DNA of 9,432 nucleotides, from positions 1 through 9,432 of the forward strand of contig JAMCRS010000247.1 of the NCBI GenBank assembly GCA_023380675.1, written 5' to 3'. Origin of the DNA: Chloroflexota bacterium. Lineage in GTDB: Bacteria; Chloroflexota; Anaerolineae; UBA4142. Position 1 is the stretch's first letter. Each line of letters begins with the position of its first letter. The translations under genes and the position numbers were made by a program. Below are positions 1 through 9,432 of this stretch, one piece after another. The notes beneath the pieces are model-generated. The model saw nothing but the letters and a program-made list of their open reading frames with translations, searched no databases and was not told where the DNA came from.

Positions 1-1020
1 GTGGAGAGGGGAGAGCGGTGGCATAATTTGCCCGGTCTGGTGTACCGTGAGGGCGATCACTACCACCGGAACCCGCCAGAGTTTGGCCCGCTCGATATCC
101 TGCCACGGGCGCGGCAGGTAGTGGACAATAGGCGTTATCTAATGGCGGGCGGCATGGGCAACGTCGAGACGAAGCGTGGCTGCGCGCAAAGCTGTATCTA
201 CTGTGCCGATTCGCTGAGCAAGGGGCGGCGCTATCGGCTAAGGTCGCCAAAGGCGGTGGGCGCAGAGCTAGAGGCACTGCTCGACCAGGGGGTGGATTGG
301 CTCCACCTGTGTGACGCCGAGTTCAGCCTGCCACGCGGGCACGCGGAGGCGTTATGCGAAGAGATAGTGGCGCGGGGTCTGAGCGACCGCCTTCGATGGT
401 ATGCCTACGCGGTGGCGCAACCATTTGACGAACGCCTCGCGGCGCTGATGCTTAGAGCGGGGTGTCGGGGAATCAACTTCGGCGTGGACAGTGGGAGCGA
501 CGAGATCTTGAGGCGGCTCGGGCGATCGTATACCGCGGAAGACGTGCGGAGTACGGCCGCGGCGTGTCGAAAGCAAGGCCTGACTTTCATGTTCGATCTG
601 CTGATCGGCGGACCGGGTGAGACAAGGGCGACCGTGCGCGAGACCATTGAATTGATGAAGCAAGTTGATCCGGCGCGGGTGGGCGCGGCGATTGGAGTGC
701 GCATCTATCCGGGCACGAGACTGGCGGCAATGGTGGCAGCCGATGGCTTCCAGCCGGATAACCCGGAGCTACACGGCGTTGTGGCAGGGAACGAGGATTT
801 TGCCGACCCGGTGTTCTACCTATCGGCGGGCTTTGGCGTCGACGGACTGGACTACGTGCGTGAGCTTGTGGATGGCGACCAGCGCTTCTTCCTGGGGGCC
901 AAAAAAGAGGAGCTGAGCCAGAATTACAACTACAACGACAATAGCGTCTTAGTGGAGGCTATTCGCCGGGGTGAACGCGGCGCCTACTGGGACATTTTGA
1001 GGCGAATGCAGACGAAATAG
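1..1020 (+). CDS. Radical SAM protein, probably of the B12-binding-domain class (5' end outside window)
   Basis: This is an iron-sulfur enzyme that would cleave S-adenosylmethionine to start radical chemistry. The cluster motif CAQSCIYC (C-x3-C-x2-C) lies at residues 61-68 of the visible 339. Further on are radical SAM barrel elements: LHLCDAEFS near 102, GINFGVDSGSDEIL near 155 and LIGGPGET near 201. The first visible residues, ending in NLPGLVYR, look like the linker that follows an N-terminal cobalamin-binding domain in B12-dependent radical SAM proteins. The GTG at base 1 is therefore probably an internal valine codon and the true start is upstream. The tail contains NYNYNDN and ends RGAYWDILRR, which resembles a family-specific C-terminal domain. 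The substrate cannot be told; methyltransferases and lipid or cofactor enzymes share this layout. The next gene is convergent, 100 bases away. Radical SAM assignment is firm; the B12 class is inferred. Confidence 0.88.
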   Translation: MERGERWHNLPGLVYREGDHYHRNPPEFGPLDILPRARQVVDNRRYLMAGGMGNVETKRGCAQSCIYCADSLSKGRRYRLRSPKAVGAELEALLDQGVDWLHLCDAEFSLPRGHAEALCEEIVARGLSDRLRWYAYAVAQPFDERLAALMLRAGCRGINFGVDSGSDEILRRLGRSYTAEDVRSTAAACRKQGLTFMFDLLIGGPGETRATVRETIELMKQVDPARVGAAIGVRIYPGTRLAAMVAADGFQPDNPELHGVVAGNEDFADPVFYLSAGFGVDGLDYVRELVDGDQRFFLGAKKEELSQNYNYNDNSVLVEAIRRGERGAYWDILRRMQTK

Positions 1021-1120
1021 GAGACAACGACGAAAGCGGTCACGTTTCCGCAGGGCGGGTTCTCTTATGCTGGCCGGGCCACGCAAAGTGCGCACGGTGG
1101 CGGGAAAGGTGAGAGGACAG

Positions 1121-2389
1121 CTAGGGGGATAGCTTGGTGACCTGCACTAGGCCGATGCGATTGCCGCGCATGGATAGCACCGTCACTTCGAGGTGTTGCC
1201 ATCGGAAGCCATCACCTGCTTTGGGAATGGTGTCTGTTTGCTGAAAGACAAATCCACCAAGGGTATCGACCTCCTCGGAAGGCAGCTCGACTCCGAATAG
1301 CTCGTTGAAGTCGTTGATGCTGATGGAGGCGTCAACGACCACCGTTTGGGGTGAGATGGAGTGGATGAGTCGCCGCTCGGCCCCGAATTCGCTCATTATC
1401 TCTCCCACGACTTCTTCCAGAAGATCTTCGATGGTCACGATGCCGGCGGTGCCGCCATATTCGTCTATGACCGCGGCGATTTGGGTCGACTGCTCGCGCA
1501 TCTCACGTAACAGGTCTGATACCCGCTTGGTTTCTGGCACGACAATTATGGGGCGCATGATCTGTTCTGCTTTGGTGGTTCGATGGCCTAGTGCGTATTG
1601 TACGAGCACATCTTTGGCATTTACCACGCCGACGAGATCGTCGATAGTACCTCGGTAAACCGGCAGACGCGTGAAGCCGCTTTGGCGGATGTCGGCCGCA
1701 AGGCGCTCGACCGTCACGTCTTCGGAAACGCCCGTCACTTGGGTGCGAGGCACCATTACTTCGCGCACAGCGGTTTCTTCGAGCTCTAGAATGTTGCGCA
1801 ACATGCGCGCTTCCTCTACGCCAAGGGTGCCGTGTTCCTCGGCGAGGGCGATCGTAGTCTCGACCTCTTGCTGTCCGATCAGCCAGCGCGGCATTGCCGA
1901 TATGCGGAAGAGACGGGCTATGCCGGTGCTTATCCATCGCAGGATTACGAGGAGGGGCCGCAGAATAAGCACAATCAACTCAATAATTGGCGCGAAGGCC
2001 AGGGCAAATCGTTCCGAATGGGCGCTGGCAATGGTTTTCGGTGTGATCTCTCCAAAGACGACAAGCAGGACGGTGACCCCGATTGTTGCCACGAGAATGG
2101 CAGATCCACCAGAAAAGTAATCAGAGGCGATGATCGTTCCGATCGCCGCCGCGGCAGTGGTCGCCAGGTTGCTGCAAAGCAGAATGGCAGGGAGTAGTTT
2201 ATCGGGCTGTTCTACTAGGCGACTAACGCGTTCAGCGCCCGGCACTCTTTCGTCGACAAGCTGCCGGACGCGCACACGCTGCAGCGACACAAAAGCAGTT
2301 TCGGCGCTGGCGAAGAAGGCGGCGATGGCCAGGGCAAGGGCGAGGAAGAGTAGGTTTAGCGCAAGGTGGCTGACAGCCAAAGGTCTCAC
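1121..2389 (-). CDS. CNNM/CorC (hemolysin-type) membrane protein with DUF21, CBS pair and CorC_HlyC domains
   Basis: This inner-membrane protein belongs to the family linked to magnesium/cobalt homeostasis and historically called hemolysin C-like. With the GTG start at 2389 it has 422 residues, the usual length. In order: a first membrane helix near 12-27 running into FFASAETAFVSL; helices near 66-90 and 97-112, the latter ending in the conserved FGEITPK; a fourth near 128-160; CBS 1 from MVPRTQVTGV (about 212-262); CBS 2 from IMRPIIVVPE (about 277-331) with DEYGGTAGIVTIEDLLEE; and a CorC_HlyC domain with DTLGGFVF near 375-382. The frame stays open to a GTG at 2494 that has GGGAG 8 bases upstream. 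The extra 35 residues contain five cysteines within 17 residues and do not look like a membrane-protein leader, so the shorter start is preferred. A TTG at 2380 is also possible. The stop lies in CTAG. Confidence 0.88.
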   Translation of the reverse strand: MRPLAVSHLALNLLFLALALAIAAFFASAETAFVSLQRVRVRQLVDERVPGAERVSRLVEQPDKLLPAILLCSNLATTAAAAIGTIIASDYFSGGSAILVATIGVTVLLVVFGEITPKTIASAHSERFALAFAPIIELIVLILRPLLVILRWISTGIARLFRISAMPRWLIGQQEVETTIALAEEHGTLGVEEARMLRNILELEETAVREVMVPRTQVTGVSEDVTVERLAADIRQSGFTRLPVYRGTIDDLVGVVNAKDVLVQYALGHRTTKAEQIMRPIIVVPETKRVSDLLREMREQSTQIAAVIDEYGGTAGIVTIEDLLEEVVGEIMSEFGAERRLIHSISPQTVVVDASISINDFNELFGVELPSEEVDTLGGFVFQQTDTIPKAGDGFRWQHLEVTVLSMRGNRIGLVQVTKLSP

Positions 2390-2439
2390 ATCCCTGATCG
2401 AAAAGCGCAGTAGCAACCGAGGCTCGTGCGGTGCAAGAT

Positions 2440-3196
2440 GCATGCCGCACGAGGTCGATAGAGAACACGTACACGTGCAGACCAGCGATGGCACGCTCCT
2501 TGCTCCCAGGCTCGGCGTGTCATTCGCGGATGCTGAGGAGCGGTATCGCTGGAAGCGCGACAGCGCATCTTGCCGAACATGCCCGATGACCTGGCGCTGG
2601 TCGGGGAGCGCACCTTACAGTCAAAGCGCGTCGCGATGTGCCTGGGCACCACGATTGCAGGGATCGAGCTAGACCGAGTGATGACCAAGGACGGTGAGGC
2701 GATACCTACCCGCACAGTGATCTGGGCAGCCGGTATCCAGGCGAACCAGGTCGTGGCGGACTTGCCAGTGACGAAAGGTCGGGGTGGGACCGCGGTGGTG
2801 AATGAATTCTTCCAGATACCGGGCTATCCCGACGTTTCCGCGCTGGGCGACAACGCCGCGACCGCCGACCCGCGCAGCGGAGAGCCGCTGCCAGCGGATG
2901 CCAAGGTGGCGATTCGACACGCGGACTGGGTGGCGAAGAACGTGCTCCATCGCTTGAGTGAGGAGCCGCTGGAGCGGTTCCAGTACGAGCCGATCGGCGA
3001 TATGATCTCGCTGGGCACTTGGTCAGCGGTAGCCGACATCCGCGGCGTGAAACTCTCTGGATTCACGGCCTGGCTGTTGTGGAGGACGTATTATCTGGGA
3101 CGTCTTTTTGGCGCGGAAAACAAGCTCCGCGTGATCACGGACTGGGTGCTGGAGTCCTTTTTCGAGCGCGACACGGCGCGGGTCGAGGCGGCCTAG
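2440..3196 (+). pseudogene. ndh: Type II NADH dehydrogenase (NDH-2) remnant, core deleted
   Basis: A complete NDH-2 is a single-subunit flavoprotein of about 400 residues that passes electrons from NADH to quinone. Here only the C-terminal half is intact: from a TTG at 2570 an open frame of 208 residues carries GEAIPTRTVIWAAG (42-55), the FAD-contacting ALGDNA (91-96), GDMISLGTWSAVADIRG (about 142-158) and a hydrophobic/amphipathic tail (GFTAWLLWRTYYLGRLFG). In-frame homology continues upstream to about 2543 (EARQRILPNMP) and then meets a TGA at 2534-2536. In another frame, 2442-2540 reads EVDREHVHVQTSDGTLLA and ADAEER, which resemble the segments before and after the usual YDYLVLA-G site. 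The FAD-binding GxGxxG N terminus and the NADH-binding GxGxxG are absent. I see internal deletions plus a frame change, so a nonfunctional gene is likely. The TTG frame could still be translated. Its TAG stop overlaps the CTAG at the insertion-sequence junction. Confidence 0.72.
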
Positions 3197-3202
3197 AAAC
3201 CC
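3193..3202 (+). repeat. Left terminal inverted repeat of the insertion sequence
   Basis: CTAGAAACCC is exactly the reverse complement of 5020-5029. Its first four bases also contain the TAG stop of the NDH-2 remnant, so they are probably target sequence rather than element sequence. Confidence 0.7.
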
Positions 3203-3206
3203 GGAC

Positions 3207-3219
3207 GACAAGTCTTGTC
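3207..3219. repeat. Subterminal palindrome GACAAG-T-CTTGTC
   Basis: Two perfect 6-base arms around a single central T lie just inside the left end and overlap the region where a -35 element for the transposase would fall. It could be a transposase or host-factor binding site, which is inference. No equivalent is seen at the right end. Confidence 0.45.
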
Positions 3220-3241
3220 TGGCCGGCTGATATGGTATAAT
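3215..3241 (+). promoter_or_regulatory. Transposase promoter with extended -10
   Basis: TATAAT at 3236-3241 is a perfect -10 box and is preceded by TGG (3233-3235), giving the extended form TGnTATAAT. The best -35 candidate is TTGTCT at 3215-3220 with a short 15-base spacer; an extended -10 does not require a strong -35. Transcription would start near 3248, about 23 bases before the transposase ATG. Confidence 0.62.
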
Positions 3242-3265
3242 GTCGCCGAACTTGCGTTCGGAGGC
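3242..3265 (+). promoter_or_regulatory. Hairpin covering the transposase ribosome binding site
   Basis: CCGAAC (3246-3251) pairs with GTTCGG (3256-3261) around the loop TTGC. After one G-A mismatch the stem can continue with GTC (3242-3244) pairing to GGC (3263-3265). The Shine-Dalgarno GGAGG (3260-3264, 6 bases before the ATG at 3271) would then be fully buried. A transcript begun at the internal promoter near 3248 lacks most of the 5' arm, whereas a transcript reading in from outside carries all of it. This layout would limit translation from read-through RNA, as known for other insertion sequences. Function here is inferred. Confidence 0.5.
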
Positions 3266-3270
3266 TCGCT

Positions 3271-5016
3271 ATGCTCGGCAAACGCTCGGACCAGCTTGGT
3301 CTCTTTGAGGCCGACCACGGTTACCTTGACTTCGTCGGCCGCAACTCGTTCTATGGCTTCCTCGCCAGCCAGCGAGGCAAGCTCTTTCGCGATGTGGACT
3401 TTGCCAAGCTGTACTGTCTCGACAACGGTTGCCCGAGTGTGCCACCCAGCCTCCTCGCGACTGCCCTCCTTCTGCAAACCTATGACCGGGTGTCTGACGA
3501 AGAGGCGAAGGCTCGCGCAGACTTCGACCTGCGCTGGAAAGTGGCCCTCGGCATCGAGCTCGATGCGCGTCCCTTCGCCAAGAGCACCCTCCAGCTCTTT
3601 CGATCCCAACTGGTCATTCACAAAGAGGCTGGCACGGTCTTCAAGAAGAGCCTCGCCTTTGCTCGCCAGACCGGTCACCTGAAGAATCGGAAGATCAAAT
3701 TGGCCCTCGATACAAGCAACATTCTCGGCCGCGGTGCAGTCAAAGATACCTACAACCTCTTGGCCGATGGCATTGTTAAACTGGGGCGTGTGCTGGCTGA
3801 TCTGAATTGTAGCAAGCCTGAGGAGTGGGCCAGCGCCAACGACCTGTCGCGCTATTTCACAGCGGCCAGCATCAAAGGTGAGGCCGACGTTGACTGGGAG
3901 GATGCCAAGGCGCGGCAGAAGTTCCTGCAGGGCGTTGTGGCGGATGCGGACACCCTGCTGGAGACGGCACGCCAGACGCTGGCCAACTATCTTCCTGACA
4001 GCGCCGAGTACAAGCAACTGACCGAGGCGGCTGAACTGCTCGCGCAGTTGCTGCTGCAAGATATCGAGCGCACGCCAGAGGGGGCCAGCATCAAGGAGGG
4101 GGTAGCCAAAGATCGGGTGGTCTCGGTGCATGACCCGGAGATGCGTCACGGACGCAAGAGCAAGTCCAAGCGCTTTGATGGACACAAGGCGGCGATAGCG
4201 GTAGATACCGAGAGTCAACTGATCACGGCGGTGGCCGTCCTGCCCGGCAACGCGCCCGACAAGGAAAAGGCGCTGGAGCTTGTTGAGCAGAGTGAGCAGA
4301 ACGCCGATGTCGAGGTCGAGGAGACTATCGGCGATTGTGCGTACGGAGACGGTGGCACCCGACAGGAGTTCGCCGATGCTGGCCGCAAGATGACGGCGAA
4401 GGTGCCTGATCGGCCGAATACCGGCTACTTCGCCAAAGAGGACTTCCGGATCGATCTGGAGACGATGACCTGCAGTTGTCCGGCGGGACAGGAAAGTCAG
4501 ACGGTGATGCCGAGCGGCAGGTGCCAAGATCGGGAAGGCAACGATGTGAAGCTGCAAGCCTTCCATTTCGACCCGGCGGTCTGCGACGCCTGTGCGATGC
4601 GCCCGCAATGTGTGAAGGCGGAGCCGGGCAAGGGCCGAACGGTGACGATCCATCCCCAGGAGCGGCTGCTGCAAGAGGCGAGAGCCTTTCAGAAGAGCGA
4701 TGCCTTTGGCCCTTACCGGAAATCGCGTCAGGTGGCAGAGCATCGGATCGCCAGACTGATGCAACTTGGCGTGCGACAAGCACGTTATTTCGGACGTACC
4801 AAAACGCTCTTCCAGCTGCTCTTGGCGGCGACGGTGGCCAAATCTGACGCTGGTAGCGACCAAAGTGGGGCTGATGAGGGCGCGAGGCAGCAAGAAGGCG
4901 CCTCTTTTCGCTCATTCCATTGTTCGCCTGGTATCTTTCATGGCTGGCTTCATCCTATCGTTAGCCGATATCTTCCGGCCCAACCCGTCTCCATTCTCTA
5001 CAGAGACGGGTTCTAG
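3271..5016 (+). CDS. IS1182-family-like DDE transposase, C terminus probably frameshifted
   Basis: This enzyme would cut and rejoin the element ends. The N terminus (about 20-110) resembles the DUF772-type domain of IS1182/IS5-like transposases (FLASQRGKLFRDVDF, SVPPSLLATALLLQ, DFDLRWKVALG). Likely catalytic acidic residues are D147 in LALDTSN, D355 in GDCAYGD, and E490 in YRKSRQVAEHRIARLMQLG. HDPEMRHGRKSKSKRFDGHK (about 288-306) is the conserved strand before the core. Cysteines 401, 403, 438, 441 and 447 suggest a small metal-binding insert. After A523 the frame leaves the expected TVANLTLVA-type ending and continues for 58 atypical residues to a TAG at 5014-5016. One extra A in AAA at 4840-4842 explains this: skipping one base gives NLTLVATKVGLMRARG and a stop at 5027-5029, 585 residues in all. 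Start ATG is supported by GGAGG 6 bases upstream. Confidence 0.85.
   Translation: MLGKRSDQLGLFEADHGYLDFVGRNSFYGFLASQRGKLFRDVDFAKLYCLDNGCPSVPPSLLATALLLQTYDRVSDEEAKARADFDLRWKVALGIELDARPFAKSTLQLFRSQLVIHKEAGTVFKKSLAFARQTGHLKNRKIKLALDTSNILGRGAVKDTYNLLADGIVKLGRVLADLNCSKPEEWASANDLSRYFTAASIKGEADVDWEDAKARQKFLQGVVADADTLLETARQTLANYLPDSAEYKQLTEAAELLAQLLLQDIERTPEGASIKEGVAKDRVVSVHDPEMRHGRKSKSKRFDGHKAAIAVDTESQLITAVAVLPGNAPDKEKALELVEQSEQNADVEVEETIGDCAYGDGGTRQEFADAGRKMTAKVPDRPNTGYFAKEDFRIDLETMTCSCPAGQESQTVMPSGRCQDREGNDVKLQAFHFDPAVCDACAMRPQCVKAEPGKGRTVTIHPQERLLQEARAFQKSDAFGPYRKSRQVAEHRIARLMQLGVRQARYFGRTKTLFQLLLAATVAKSDAGSDQSGADEGARQQEGASFRSFHCSPGIFHGWLHPIVSRYLPAQPVSILYRDGF
4982..5012. terminator. Right-end hairpin, possible transcription stop
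   Basis: AACCCGTCTC (4982-4991) and GAGACGGGTT (5003-5012) form a perfect 10-base stem with an 11-base loop at the 3' end of the transposase gene. No T-run follows, so a classic intrinsic terminator is doubtful. It may slow transcripts leaving the element into the convergent hydrolase gene, or be part of the right-end recognition region. Confidence 0.4.
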
Positions 5017-5019
5017 GCT

Positions 5020-5029
5020 GGGTTTCTAG
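5020..5029 (-). repeat. Right terminal inverted repeat of the insertion sequence
   Basis: GGGTTTCTAG is the exact inverted copy of 3193-3202. Its CTAG contains the stop codon of the hydrolase on the minus strand (5026-5028) and the stop of the transposase in the shifted plus frame (5027-5029). Confidence 0.7.
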
Positions 5030-5739
5030 AGGGTCGCCAGAAACGCCCCTAGCGCCTCGTTGAAACGCGTCGGCTGCTCGATCTGCACCATGTGTCCTGC
5101 GCCTGGGATGACTGCCGTCGTGCAGTTTGGCAGGTTCTGCTGGAAGTATTGAGCGTACTTTGGCGGGGTGAGCTTGTCCTGCTCGCCGACGATGGCTACG
5201 GCGGGCATGGTCAGCGCCCCGAGGCGTCCGATGGCGTCGAACTTGTCGCAGGCAGTGAAGTCGCACCAGATGACGTTGCTGCCAGCGACCTCGGCCTGTC
5301 TTCGATACTCGGCCTTCAGCGCGGGGTCGGTGGATGCGGCCCATTCCAAATCTGACATAAGAGCGAGGGCAGACGGAAAGTCTTCGCGTGACTGCTGAAT
5401 GATGGCCGGCAGCACACGCAAGCGAGCGCCCGTGCCGACGAGCACGAGACCGCGGTAGGCCGAGGGGTTGCGCAGAGCCATGGTGAGGATGATACCGCCG
5501 CCGAGGGAATGGCCGGCAATGACTGGGCGATCCGCTTTATGATCGGCAATAAAGCGCTCCACCGCATCAGCATAGGCTTCGATGTCGGACTGAGGCTGAC
5601 CGCCGGCCTCGCCATGCCCTGGCAAATCTACCGCTAGGGGGCGATACTTGCCGCTCAGGTGGCTGACCTGATGGTGCCAAATGGTGGCGTTGCATCCCGT
5701 GCCGTGGACAAATACCACTGAGATCGGATCATTGGACAT
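5026..5739 (-). CDS. Alpha/beta hydrolase
   Basis: A single-domain serine hydrolase of 237 residues. The oxyanion-hole motif is HGTG (12-15), the nucleophile elbow is GHSLGG with S78, the acid is probably D188 in GEQDKLTP, and the histidine is H216 in GAGHMVQIEQP. A lid-like helical insert lies at about 105-170. The fold covers esterases, enol-lactonases, thioesterases and haloperoxidase-like enzymes, so the substrate is not known. I placed the start at the ATG at 5739 because GAGGT sits 5 bases upstream. The frame is open to 5799, but the extra 20 residues are not conserved-looking. No signal peptide is visible, so it is cytoplasmic. The gene reads away from the SDR gene in the same direction, 285 bases downstream of it, with a repeat in between. 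Its stop falls within the CTAG at the insertion-sequence boundary. Confidence 0.9.
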   Translation of the reverse strand: MSNDPISVVFVHGTGCNATIWHHQVSHLSGKYRPLAVDLPGHGEAGGQPQSDIEAYADAVERFIADHKADRPVIAGHSLGGGIILTMALRNPSAYRGLVLVGTGARLRVLPAIIQQSREDFPSALALMSDLEWAASTDPALKAEYRRQAEVAGSNVIWCDFTACDKFDAIGRLGALTMPAVAIVGEQDKLTPPKYAQYFQQNLPNCTTAVIPGAGHMVQIEQPTRFNEALGAFLATL

Positions 5740-5806
5740 GGCGCACCTCTTTCCATCTGCGTTATTCACGTCGATTGCCTTTTTCGAGGTCTCTGTCAAC
5801 GCCGGT

Positions 5807-5959
5807 CAATTACAGGACCTACGCGGTCGGGGTCCGGTTATCCGCAGATTACGCAGATTACGAAGATTACGCAGACGACGCAGATATTTCCGGGTCTTTC
5901 TGGCGTCTTCTACGGTCGCTGCGTCTGAAAATGACCAACCGCGTAACTCCTGTCAATTA
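5807..5959. repeat. MITE-like element with imperfect terminal inverted repeats
   Basis: The ends 5807-5830 and 5935-5959 are inverted copies: the outer AATT, the ACAGGA block and the inner TACGCGGT block match, with a one-base gap and a few mismatches (about 20 of 24 positions). The 104-base interior holds a 9-base tandem repeat and no gene. It occupies most of the spacer between the SDR and hydrolase genes. The small size, paired ends and lack of coding suggest a non-autonomous transposable repeat. I see no clear target duplication. Confidence 0.55.
5845..5889. repeat. 9-base tandem repeat, about five units
   Basis: The unit CAGATTACG is present twice exactly (5845-5853, 5854-5862), then as AAGATTACG, CAGACGACG and finally a degenerate CAGATATTT. 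The plus strand could be read as repeated Ala-Asp-Tyr, but there is no supporting start or ribosome binding site, so I treat it as non-coding. Confidence 0.75.
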
Positions 5960-6024
5960 TCGAGCTGCGAAGGCGTGCCGGTCCAGCCGTATTCGGACAG
6001 CTTGGGCGCTCTGGTGCGATGTGA

Positions 6025-6792
6025 CTACCAGGCGGTCCAGGCGGCGTCCACCATCACGGTGGTGCCGCTCACGTAACTCGAACTATCCGCGGCGAGGAAG
6101 ATGGCCGCGCCGACGATTTCTTGTGGCTCTGCCATACGACCAACCGGGGAGCGCGCCATTAAGTTCTCATATATCTTCTGGTTCGTCCGCAACCCGGTAG
6201 TGAAATCGGTAGCCACGTAGGCCGGCGCGATCGCGTTCACCTGGATGTTGTGCTTTGCCCATTCCACCGCGAGGGTCTTGGTGATCATTTCGCCGCCGCC
6301 CTTAGTGGCGCAGTAGGCGACGAGCCTGGGTAGGGCGACATGGGCACCCGCCGACAACATGTTGATGATCTTGCCGCGTTGCTGCTCGATCATCACGCGA
6401 CCGACGGTTTGGCAACACAGGAAGGTGCCCTTCAGGTTGACCGCGATGATGCGGTCCCAGTCCTCCTCGGAGAGATTCTCGGCACGAACGTAAGCAGGGC
6501 TGATACCGGCGTTGTTTACGAGGATGTCGATCTTGCCAAAGGTGGCGAGGGTTTGCGCGACCAGAGTCTCGACCTGATTGCGCTGGCTAACGTCGACGGT
6601 CAAGGGAAGCGAGCGGCGGCCGATAGTGCTGATCTCGCCGGCCACCTGCTCGACCTCGCTGGTGGTGCGGGCGGTTACCACGACGTCGGCGCCGGCCTCC
6701 GCGAAGCCCAGAGCGATAGCCCGTCCGATGCCGCGGCCACCGCCAGTGACAATGGCCACTTTGTCGGAGAGTGAGAAGCTTACGAGGGACAT
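6025..6792 (-). CDS. SDR-family oxidoreductase
   Basis: A classical short-chain dehydrogenase/reductase of 255 residues that would interconvert an alcohol and a ketone with NAD(P). The cofactor motif is TGGGRGIG (16-23). D67 in VDVS would contact adenine, NNAG is at 93-96, the structural Asn is N119 in VNLKG, and the catalytic triad is S147, Y160 and K164 in the standard S-x12-Y-x3-K spacing. VTAR after the second strand places an arginine where NADP-preferring members often have one. The C-terminal SSYVSGTTVMVDAAWTAW is the typical SDR ending. The start ATG at 6792 has GGAAGG about 8 bases upstream; the GTG at 6801 would sit directly on that site and is rejected. It lies 87 bases after the small cysteine protein on the same strand and is probably cotranscribed. 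The substrate is unknown; a 3-oxo or hydroxyacyl compound linked to the dehydratase pathway is only a guess. Confidence 0.92.
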   Translation of the reverse strand: MSLVSFSLSDKVAIVTGGGRGIGRAIALGFAEAGADVVVTARTTSEVEQVAGEISTIGRRSLPLTVDVSQRNQVETLVAQTLATFGKIDILVNNAGISPAYVRAENLSEEDWDRIIAVNLKGTFLCCQTVGRVMIEQQRGKIINMLSAGAHVALPRLVAYCATKGGGEMITKTLAVEWAKHNIQVNAIAPAYVATDFTTGLRTNQKIYENLMARSPVGRMAEPQEIVGAAIFLAADSSSYVSGTTVMVDAAWTAW

Positions 6793-6879
6793 ATGCTGCA
6801 CCTTCCTTGATTTCCAATCACGGACTGACGGGCTGTACTTCAGGCGACGAACGGAGAGTAACTCGCGTGAGACAGGGCA

Positions 6880-7212
6880 TCAAGAACTTTCGATACCGGT
6901 CGTCGCCGTGGCAAGCCTGATCTTGATGGCTTCGACAATCGCGTCGGCAAGTTTCGCTTCGGGCACCGACTGTGTCTCGACGCTCTCTCCCGCAACCACA
7001 ATGGCGTCGCGTGCCTGGCTTCGGACGTCCTGCCGGTCGGCGCAGGCAGTGAGGCAGCCATTTAGAATGATCACCAAGTCAGCCCCACCACCTGTCAGTG
7101 GCACAAAGGTCATAAAATCGTGGGCGAGCGCGCGGATGCGACTCGCGATATGACCCAATTCAACCTGCGGATTGCAGGAACCGCAATATTTCAGGGCTGA
7201 CTTGGTGATCAT
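6880..7212 (-). CDS. Small four-cysteine protein of unknown function downstream of abfD
   Basis: I do not recognise a named family. The 110-residue product begins MITKSALKYCGSCNPQVEL, with CxxC at 10/13, and continues to DLVIILNGCLTACAD with CxxxC at 53/57. The two cysteine pairs, each at the end of a predicted strand, look like a four-ligand metal or iron-sulfur site. The segment between them and the tail (AIVVAGESVETQS) suggest a small alpha/beta fold. No signal peptide or membrane helix is seen. The ATG follows the dehydratase stop by 14 bases, and no Shine-Dalgarno is visible, so translational coupling to abfD is likely. Position suggests a partner in cluster assembly, electron transfer or repair for the dehydratase, but that is inference. 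The open frame, the strand consistency with neighbours and the cysteine spacing argue that it is real. Confidence 0.8.
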   Translation of the reverse strand: MITKSALKYCGSCNPQVELGHIASRIRALAHDFMTFVPLTGGGADLVIILNGCLTACADRQDVRSQARDAIVVAGESVETQSVPEAKLADAIVEAIKIRLATATTGIESS

Positions 7213-7226
7213 TTACGCGGCAGGGC

Positions 7227-8669
7227 CTACTGCTCGTCTATGCCTGCCAAGCGCAGAGCGAGACGACGCTTGTGCTCCAGATTGGCCTGTCTCAGAATCA
7301 TGACCCGCTGGGCCTGCGGTGAACCCGCTCCGTGCATCGCCTCGGCGAGCGCTGTACCTCCTGTCATGTTCTCGATCAACCGCCCGATGCGAATGCGGTG
7401 TTCCGCGGGGACGTTGGCGACGCCCTTGGTGTACTTTGCGACGAGGGGACCGATTTTCGGATGGCGGAGGTCCTTTTCGGAAGGAGTGGTGGCGATGTAG
7501 CCGCCGGCGATGTCCTGTGCCAACCGGCAAAGCTCGTAGATAAAGCGAGTCACGTTGAGCTTGGTGGTGTTTGCCAAGAGGGGATCGACGAAGTAATTGC
7601 CGGCAGCCAGTCGGCTGCTCTCTAGAGAGCAGGCAATCGATCCACAGTAGAGTGTCTCCGAGAGGTGCACCATCTCGGTGATCTTGTCTCGGACGTGGGA
7701 GGCCTTGGCGGTGCCCTGGAAATCGGCGGCCGCTACGCAGGCGCCGATCAAGACGTCGGCAACACCGGTCTTGCAGCCACCGTAATTCTGACGATGGTAG
7801 CTGGCAAAACGCTCGACCAAGGAGCCAGCAAACTCGGACTCGCCGCAAAGGAAGATGCGGTCATTGGGCACGAAGACATCGTCGAAGATGATGAGGGCCT
7901 CGCCGCCGACGATGCCGAAACGATCGTTGCCGACGTCGATGTCGCCGCCCTCTAAGCGCCGAACGTCATTGCTCTGGCGGCCAAAGACGTAGATGATGCC
8001 GGGCGTGTCGGAAGGAAGGGCGAAGGAGACGGCGTAGTCGGCGTCGTCCTGGCCCATGCCAGTTGTCGGCATGACAAGGACTTCGTGGGAGTTCACGGCG
8101 CCGGTCTGATGGGCTTTCGCACCGCGCACGACGATGCCGTCCGGCCGGCGTTCGATAATATGCAGATAGAGATCGGGGTCGGCCTGTTTGCTGGGCGACA
8201 GACTGCGATCTCCTTTGGGGTCGGTCATTGCGCCGTCGATCATAAGATCGTTTTGCTGGATGTAGCGCAGGTAATCCAGAAACCGGCCGTGATAGTTGGT
8301 GCCACGCTTGGCGTCGACGTCGTGCGTGACGCTAAAGAGGGCGTTGAGGGCATCGTGGCCAACGCAGCGCTGGAAGCAAGTGCCGGTGCGCTGCCCGAGG
8401 GCGCGCAGCATTTTTACTTTCTTTACGAGCTCTTCTGAGCTGTGGTGAATGTGAGTAAAGCGATTGACGCGCTCGCCGGTGAGGTGTGATTGCACCGCGC
8501 CGAGATCCTCGGTCTCCGGGTCATGGGCGAGATCGTAGGTGGCGGCCGCGGAGTTGATGTGCGGTCGAAATGCCGGGTGATCGGGGACACTGTCGACGCG
8601 CTCACCCATGTAGTAGACTTCGAGCTTGAGCTTGCGGAGGCTCTCGCGATACTGCTCGCCGGTCATCAT
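7227..8669 (-). CDS. abfD: 4-hydroxybutyryl-CoA dehydratase / vinylacetyl-CoA delta-isomerase (AbfD-like)
   Basis: This FAD and [4Fe-4S] enzyme would dehydrate 4-hydroxybutyryl-CoA to crotonyl-CoA and isomerise vinylacetyl-CoA. It belongs to the same fold as HpaB-type flavin monooxygenases, but the cluster ligands set it apart. The 480 residues contain C98 and C102 (CFQRC) and H292 and C299 (HRQNYGGC), the same spacing as C99, C103, H292 and C299 of the clostridial enzyme. E257, Y296 and K300 also coincide with reported active-site positions; E443 and A448 (in EAMHGAGSPQAQR) probably match its E455 and A460. I chose the ATG at 8669 because the family starts M-TGEQYRESLRKLK and AAGGAG lies 11 bases upstream. 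The frame is open to 9140, but that extension covers repeats and is not protein-like. A second ATG at 8666 is equivalent. It is the first gene of a likely operon. Possible pathways are GABA/4-hydroxybutyrate use or a hydroxybutyrate carbon cycle; other pathway genes are not in view. Confidence 0.93.
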   Translation of the reverse strand: MMTGEQYRESLRKLKLEVYYMGERVDSVPDHPAFRPHINSAAATYDLAHDPETEDLGAVQSHLTGERVNRFTHIHHSSEELVKKVKMLRALGQRTGTCFQRCVGHDALNALFSVTHDVDAKRGTNYHGRFLDYLRYIQQNDLMIDGAMTDPKGDRSLSPSKQADPDLYLHIIERRPDGIVVRGAKAHQTGAVNSHEVLVMPTTGMGQDDADYAVSFALPSDTPGIIYVFGRQSNDVRRLEGGDIDVGNDRFGIVGGEALIIFDDVFVPNDRIFLCGESEFAGSLVERFASYHRQNYGGCKTGVADVLIGACVAAADFQGTAKASHVRDKITEMVHLSETLYCGSIACSLESSRLAAGNYFVDPLLANTTKLNVTRFIYELCRLAQDIAGGYIATTPSEKDLRHPKIGPLVAKYTKGVANVPAEHRIRIGRLIENMTGGTALAEAMHGAGSPQAQRVMILRQANLEHKRRLALRLAGIDEQ

Positions 8670-8914
8670 AGTCGGGGTGACTCCTTCCTGACGTAGGGCC
8701 ATGGCGAAGCCCAGAATGCTCGAAGGTCGCGCCGCTCGCCAGCGACCGGTGGCCACGGAGAAGGTGACGGCACAGCGGGCACTGAGGGGCAGAGCGCCAG
8801 CAGGGCCTATTGTACCACGAACGCCAGAATCGGGGAAGGGACGTTCAGGTCGGTCATTGGGGCGAATGCATTCTCGTGATCTCGGAGCTTGGAGACGAGG
8901 AATCCTCACCCTAA

Positions 8915-8940
8915 CCCTCTCCTTTTGCGAAAGGCGAGGG
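8915..8940. repeat. REP-like hairpin
   Basis: CCCTCTCCTTT (8915-8925) and AAAGGCGAGGG (8930-8940) form an 11-base stem with one mismatch and a TGCG loop, preceded by CCTCACCCTAA. Intergenic repeats of this type (CCCTAACCCTCTCC followed by the inverse) are common in some environmental bacteria. It could form in RNA on either strand. Confidence 0.65.
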
Positions 8941-8986
8941 AATAGGCCGACGCGTGAGAAAGGCGAGGGCACAGACCGACGCGTGC
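8929..8986. repeat. 29-base tandem duplication
   Basis: Units 8929-8957 and 8958-8986 agree at 25 of 29 positions, sharing GAAAGGCGAGGG and CCGACGCGTG. The first unit supplies the 3' arm of the REP-like hairpin, so the duplication probably arose by slippage from that repeat. Confidence 0.75.
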
Positions 8987-9088
8987 GGAGGCCCCGCTCG
9001 TTAACCTCAAGACAGGTCGTCGTCCCGCCGGTGAGTAGAACGCATTCGCCCTGAGGTCTGCCATTGGCGCGGCGTGGCTGGCGATGCG

Positions 9089-9432
9089 CTACTCGGCTAG
9101 CGCTGGCGCGACGACTACTGGTGCCTTGCCGCCGTCCCAAGCGATGGCGGTGGTGCTGCTGCCGCTAATGGTGACGGTCTTGGCTACCACCTGGCCGTTG
9201 ACGGACGCGGACGTGTGGCCGGCGATGGCGACGTCGGCACCGGGGGCGTAGATCGTGCCGTTGTAGGTGATGTCAGTGCCGCCGGTGATCTGAATGGCAT
9301 TGCCGCCGTCGCTGCGCTTGGAGTAGATAAGGATGTTGTTGTAGGCGGGGCCGCTGTTGAGGGTGCCGCTAGCCTGAGACTCAAAGTGTACAGCGCCGGT
9401 TTCCAGAACGAACTGAACGGCGGCCGCGGTGG
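9089..9432 (-). CDS. C-terminal part of a pilus/surface-type protein (DUF7305-like), 5' end outside window
   Basis: No start codon lies in the window; the frame enters at the right edge and gives 113 residues before a TAG at 9089-9091. The sequence contains NGTIYAPGADVAIAGHTSAS and then GQVVAKTVTISGSSTTA, with about twelve glycines and many serines and threonines. The pattern IYAP-A-V-I-G followed by GQ-AKTV-ISG is typical of the beta-rich C-terminal domain found in proteins with a TadE/TadG- or PilX-like N terminus. Such proteins are exported and sit at the cell surface or in pili. Family placement is from memory of the pattern. The product ends APALAE and the gene points toward abfD, 420 bases away across the repeat block, so it is probably a separate transcription unit. 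Confidence 0.65.
   Translation of the reverse strand, partial: TAAAVQFVLETGAVHFESQASGTLNSGPAYNNILIYSKRSDGGNAIQITGGTDITYNGTIYAPGADVAIAGHTSASVNGQVVAKTVTISGSSTTAIAWDGGKAPVVVAPALAE

Follow-up and report, generated by a model that had tools for sequence, protein, structure and literature searches.

We analyzed an insertion sequence in a 9,432-nucleotide stretch of DNA from a Chloroflexota bacterium (GenBank assembly GCA_023380675.1, contig JAMCRS010000247.1, positions 1 to 9,432; hereafter the window) and found that it belongs to the IS1182 family and lies exactly between two copies of the palindrome CTAG, each of which supplies the stop codon of a neighboring gene. We consider it very probable that this IS1182-family element targets and duplicates CTAG, that the stop codons of a convergent gene pair are restored by its insertion, that in most of the close relatives the transposase borrows its own stop codon from the same tetramer, and that no sensor of gene ends is involved. 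Such a device is already in print for IS870 and TnRErm46, and its occurrence in the IS1182 family is the new part.

CTAG as the duplicated target

The window transposase scores 303 bits against the NCBIfam IS1182 model NF033551 (cut-off 270), and a DDE transposase domain is present, with PF13751, PF01609, and PF05598 all above their cut-offs. By model it is not an IS5 transposase (best IS5 model 61 bits, cut-off 275), and there was no IS481 model among its six NCBIfam matches. The layout is IS1182-like as well, with a single transposase open reading frame (ORF) between terminal inverted repeats in an element of 1829 bp; members of this family measure about 1.3-1.95 kb. A repeat search of the window returned the inverted repeat CTAGAAACCC on both sides, each outer end abutting CTAG, and the two repeats are only moderately alike (10 of 14 positions matching after CTAG). 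CTAG occurs 15 times in the window, and at least 15 times in 187 of 200 shuffled sequences. Because the tetramer is not over-represented, the placement of one CTAG precisely at each outer end of the inverted repeats is hard to ascribe to chance. Excision of 3197-5029 gives GCGGC-CTAG-AGGGTC, in which the palindrome reads TAG on both strands; this confirms the first-pass annotation, which had placed both convergent stops within the flanking CTAGs.

For comparison, we took the best 80 of 85 related loci in one genome collection (29-73% identity). A copy was counted as complete if its match reached 1400 bp and its flanks reached 200 bp on the left and 330 bp on the right, and it was counted as CTAG-flanked if CTAG was followed by matching inverted repeats (at least 7 of 14) at both ends. 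Two-sided CTAG with matching repeats, the outer sequence differing between copies as the first-pass annotation had anticipated, was found in 40 of the 47 complete copies, a set that still contains the near-identical pair L071/L072. The exceptions are L010, L016, L036, L067, L076, L077, and L080, and all but L080 retain one recognizable end (6 out of 7, judged by eye). Three copies in Sorangium So ce26, with 0-1 differences in 1737 bases, have three distinct outer flanks, all with CTAG. CTAG flanks were also present at 6 of 8 plasmid loci hand-picked among the 60 matches listed and at 6 out of 6 further plasmid loci, most of these being DNA relatives of the first eight. Two genome sets (396 and 393) added five new loci, several of which repeat contigs already sampled, and none of 36 pattern matches in viral_contigs was confirmed.

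Several of these loci have unusual surroundings. The plasmid copies L088 (Priestia) and L087 (Methylobacterium, ISMno10) lack CTAG flanks, and the Priestia copy is located between CCCCCTT and CTTGAGGGG, possibly a palindromic target. On a Rhodococcus plasmid (L219, 559-4312), two IS1182 copies stand head to tail with one CTAG (2428-2431) common to both. Four actinobacterial loci (L081, L217, L218, and L219) adjoin at CTAG a similar sequence starting GGC(C)GTGTTTC, which in L081 is followed by an annotated IS5-family transposase; this flank is perhaps the end of another element that uses the same landing site.

Read from the sequences of uninterrupted (empty) sites, CTAG is the duplicated target of the element, because each of these sites has a single tetramer in place of the two that flank the inserted copy. 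The site of the Dietzia copy L085 is empty, with one CTAG, in Rhodococcus L180 (98% identity), and L179, with another element nearby, likewise retains the CTAG of this site. The site of the Sorangium copy L053 is empty, again with one CTAG, in L192 (94% identity). In Rhodococcus jostii RHA1, the left flank of L081 continues through a CTAG. The pairs L085/L180 and L053/L192 thus display a 4-bp duplication of the kind known from ISPse1. These uninterrupted sites support the earlier proposal of a target duplication in the relatives, and by analogy with them the CTAGs of the window would be a duplicated target too.

Several observations weigh against this reading. Junction-spanning empty sites with CTAG itself number only two (L180 and L192), and the single tetramer is a different one in five other relatives: CTAT and CTAC, at the same length, in L193 and L194 (compared with L053); CTTG and CTGG, with no element, in L182 (75% identity) and L183 (73%), relatives of the Thermoflexaceae copy L023 from the wider clade of the window; and CAAA in L207 (70% identity to L028 at the protein level). 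L195 is rearranged at the L053 site, and L196 falls short of it. The copy L028 sits in a metallo-beta-lactamase-fold gene with its CTAGs (4857-4860 and 6762-6765) in frame as stop, and therefore its target was CTAG only if the gene already carried a nonsense codon; before insertion, either this gene had already been disrupted or a tetramer other than CTAG stood at the site. For the site of the window itself, we found no uninterrupted relative. A control also indicated that the tetramer cannot be deduced from a frame that stays open across the site: at ten called intragenic sites, the frame is open in 8 with no CTAG, in 8 with one, and in 4 with two. Coherent frames in broken genes were therefore dropped as support for a single CTAG. 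A set of 6 genomes yielded no empty counterpart of the Sorangium sites L068 and L177, and among the plasmid matches listed for L086, L082, L220, and L217 there was no empty site that spans the junction.

Some of these observations would suit an element that carries CTAG as part of its terminal repeats and whose true target is something else, namely the constancy of CTAG at nearly all complete ends, the in-frame stop at the L028 insertion site, and the absence of CTAG in the relatives of L023 and L028 and in two of the three usable relatives of L053. A carried CTAG is, however, already contradicted by the single CTAG in the empty sites L180 and L192, and the CTAG beside the L081 flank in RHA1 and the one shared by the tandem copies of L219 speak against it as well, so that we regard it as highly improbable. 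Scarcely credible, in our judgment, is that hairpins or terminators at gene ends are recognized and replaced, as described for IS1272, which takes the place of inverted repeats without generating a duplication (PMC5678879). At the fifth base outside CTAG, the two sides are indeed complementary in 0.46 of sites versus 0.27 at other CTAGs, but this is one of ten positions examined and perhaps due to chance. Self-complementarity over the ten flank positions is 2.56 at 52 sites versus 2.72 at 310 controls, a comparison that yields no general palindrome or hairpin signal outside CTAG; stems of at least 8 occur at 1 of 51 sites versus 2 of 296 controls, and no hairpin is lost beside the tetramer in L180 or L192. 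Palindrome replacement of the IS1272 type, with deletion of the target repeat and no duplication, was thus not seen in the relatives, a result that does not extend to the window site.

The borrowed transposase stop and its precedents

Of the copies with at least 55% identity, 25 when the window is counted, 17 first close the transposase frame at the TAG of the right CTAG, which makes a stronger case than the first-pass annotation had put forward when it proposed that the transposase uses CTAG for its stop. The corresponding count for all CTAG-flanked copies is 20 out of 49. A conserved core motif of the transposase was found in 17 of the 25 close copies (not in the other 8), and in 12 of these 17 its distance to the TAG of the right CTAG is divisible by three (p = 0.002). 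Ten of the 12 have no stop along the way, and their tails come in seven lengths, from 63 to 88 codons. Since the right terminal repeat of the relatives encodes the last transposase residues, the tail ends in ..RPGF or similar. Two points tell against a general borrowed stop: 8 of the 25 close copies, including the window copy in its present reading, end the transposase elsewhere, and the tail-frame copies are related, which makes the binomial p optimistic. The trait is clustered on a tree built from 45 copies (at least 9 changes versus a shuffled mean of 14.9; 1 of 500 shuffles as low), from which we infer that the borrowed stop was gained early in the clade of the window and then lost repeatedly. 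Two copies, L005 and L007, have a right CTAG that terminates the transposase on one strand and a host gene on the other.

The window copy falls within the borrowed-stop clade, with L002 and L001 as its nearest relatives. Its transposase ORF (3271-5016) leaves the conserved frame near 4842, shifted by one base relative to 15 aligned relatives, which is either a real mutation or a sequencing error. As read, the ORF stops at 5014-5016 inside a second CTAG (5013-5016), and the frame with the conserved tail stops at 5027-5029. The stop proposed for the window transposase therefore does lie in CTAG in either frame, but the ORF to which it was assigned is itself frameshifted.

It is conceivable, though in our view unlikely, that the borrowed stop acts as a seating check, in which only a copy located at CTAG would yield a transposase with the proper end, a misplaced copy would read into host sequence, and near-miss tetramers, such as those of L028 and the non-CTAG relatives, would perhaps be overwritten by a CTAG borne by the element. 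If true, this would couple target specificity to enzyme function.

The closest precedent is IS870, an Agrobacterium element that is filed under IS5/IS427. If this filing is right, IS870 has the same device as the IS1182 copies here in another family. A CTAG target that closes the large ORF is what we observe in the 17 close copies, with the window copy frameshifted, and for IS870 the supply of the stop codon of a large ORF by the CTAG target is stated in the title of the original report (Fournier, Paulus and Otten 1993, cited in PMC6471742). CTAG is also the target of TnRErm46/ISRe46, an IS481-family element of Rhodococcus equi, in which the TAG of CTAG forms the transposase stop at the right end, and some target genes, parB among them, escape interruption because the left-end CTAG terminates them (PMC6794481). 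TnRErm46 differs in its family, in its six-base duplication NCTAGN, and in being a resistance transposon, and we found no convergent double stop among the cases described for it (PMC6794481). Within the IS1182 family, ISPse1 of Paracoccus seriniphilus was captured on a trap plasmid and has 16/16 inverted repeats and a 4-bp duplication like the one seen here; we found no statement of the sequence of that duplication, and CTAG appears nowhere in the main text of the report (PMC3281130). The Staphylococcus element IS1272 is assigned to the same family by name and, unlike the copies here, replaces inverted-repeat targets without duplication (PMC5678879). Among the open-access papers examined, we found none that ties IS1182 to a CTAG target, and where both terms occurred in those papers, CTAG stood only in primers; ISfinder and TnPedia, which lie outside that search, may list it.

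Gene ends as a probable consequence of CTAG

We called genes with a home-made codon-usage caller because long antisense ORFs made L023 look like a stop-codon site; that assignment was rejected, as uninterrupted relatives place the L023 site inside a gene that we take to be hsdM-like. After removal of 7 sites with too little flank and of the duplicates L072, L201, and L205, there were 50 distinct insertion sites, of which 9 are at a stop codon and 10 inside genes, the rest being intergenic or at contig edges. The other CTAGs in the same sequences, counted with the sequences of the three duplicates left in, number 292, with 22 at a stop codon and 159 inside genes. Insertions inside genes are thus depleted relative to other CTAGs (p = 6e-6). 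The stop-codon sites are supported by Pfam matches in the window, in L005 (galactokinase domains), and in L007 (PEPCK domain), and by record annotation in L082; L019, L040, and L052 lack a Pfam match and were accepted on visual inspection, and L058, also without a Pfam match, looks antisense. The intragenic position is confirmed by an uninterrupted relative for L023 and L028 and by record annotation for L084, and it comes from the gene caller only for the others. Intragenic insertions did not favor the CTA|G frame (7:1, by eye and with L033 and L051 left out, versus 82:23; p = 1). A double convergent stop was called at one of the 50 distinct sites, that of the window.

The first-pass annotation had suggested that such an element would be steered towards gene ends. 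The share of stop-codon sites (9 of 50 versus 22 of 292, p = 0.03) would at first fit an element actively steered, beyond CTAG, to stop codons or convergent gene ends, but this excess is gone when only sites outside genes are compared (p = 0.48), and there is no enrichment of convergent intergenic sites (p = 0.56). Moreover, 10 of the 50 sites were called inside genes, and one of the called stop sites, L028, is an insertion that breaks a gene. Active steering is therefore improbable, and the suggestion is not supported as a separate property of the element. A gene-end bias is what would be given by a CTAG target together with the loss of gene-breaking copies, with no separate steering. These sequences have roughly one CTAG per kilobase, and with the insertion sites counted, 33 called genes terminate at one of the 348 CTAGs (9.5%). 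Since 7.5-9.5% of CTAGs are stops versus 0.08% for a random position, an element that targets CTAG meets stop codons about 100 times as often as random insertion would, without a further sensor.

We propose that the DDE transposase would join the element to the palindrome CTAG with a 4-base stagger, a cut geometry that we infer, and that repair would leave CTAG on each side, as in the uninterrupted-site comparisons of the relatives. Because CTAG reads TAG on both strands, insertion at a gene-ending CTAG would return the stop of that gene, and at a CTAG common to a convergent pair it would return both stops, as read in the window. In the clade of the window, the transposase frame would usually run through the right repeat to the end of the element and take its stop from the duplicated CTAG. 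This arrangement may be retained because the terminal repeat doubles as coding sequence and a fixed target always gives a stop. Landing at gene ends would then follow from the location of CTAG in genomes and the loss of gene-breaking copies. The same solution, a CTAG target that provides the stop for the transposase and for host genes, is thus seen in a further transposase family and in records from several phyla, and the frequencies given above explain CTAG as a low-harm landing site.

Neighboring genes in the window

The Pyr_redox_2 match of the NDH-2 remnant on the left begins only at model position 179 of 291, and its C-terminal domain is whole (model positions 3-62 of 62). Because the N-terminal part is lost, this gene was probably dead before the insertion, and the hydrolase on the right is therefore the sole whole gene spared at this site. 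The earlier claim that neither reading frame is harmed thus holds in that both stops are regenerated, but for NDH-2 there was no longer a whole gene to spare. The C-terminal end of the hydrolase looks natural because four homologues, 45-55% identical, terminate 1-3 residues further on. Among 393 genomes belonging to the class of G007, no relative of the hydrolase exceeds 40% identity, and a convincing NDH-2 neighbor was absent from 30 fetched hydrolase loci (best tblastn E 0.06). A CNNM/CorC-like gene of the window (1121-2494, minus strand) also stops in a CTAG (1121-1124), with no insertion there. The coordinates of the element and its neighbors are collected in Table 1.

Table 1. Coordinates of the insertion sequence and of the adjoining genes in the window.
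Feature	Position	Strand	Basis or remark
IS1182-family insertion sequence body, 1829 bp	3197-5025	+	Sequence reading, repeats, NCBIfam match
Left CTAG, read as target duplication	3193-3196		Contains the NDH-2 remnant stop (TAG 3194-3196); status from relatives
Right CTAG, read as target duplication	5026-5029		TAG for the unshifted transposase frame (+) and the hydrolase (-)
Left terminal inverted repeat	3197-3212	+	AAACCCGGACGACAAG
Right terminal inverted repeat	5010-5025	-	Reverse complement AAACCCAGCCTAGAAC
Transposase, part conserved with relatives	3271-4839	+	Domains DDE_Tnp_1, DDE_Tnp_1_6, DUF772
Frame with conserved C-terminal transposase tail	4766-5029	+	Stop TAG in right CTAG
NDH-2 remnant, 5'-truncated	2570-3196	+	Ends ..GCC-TAG at 3194-3196
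Alpha/beta hydrolase	5026-5799	-	Ends ..CTC-TAG at 5028-5026

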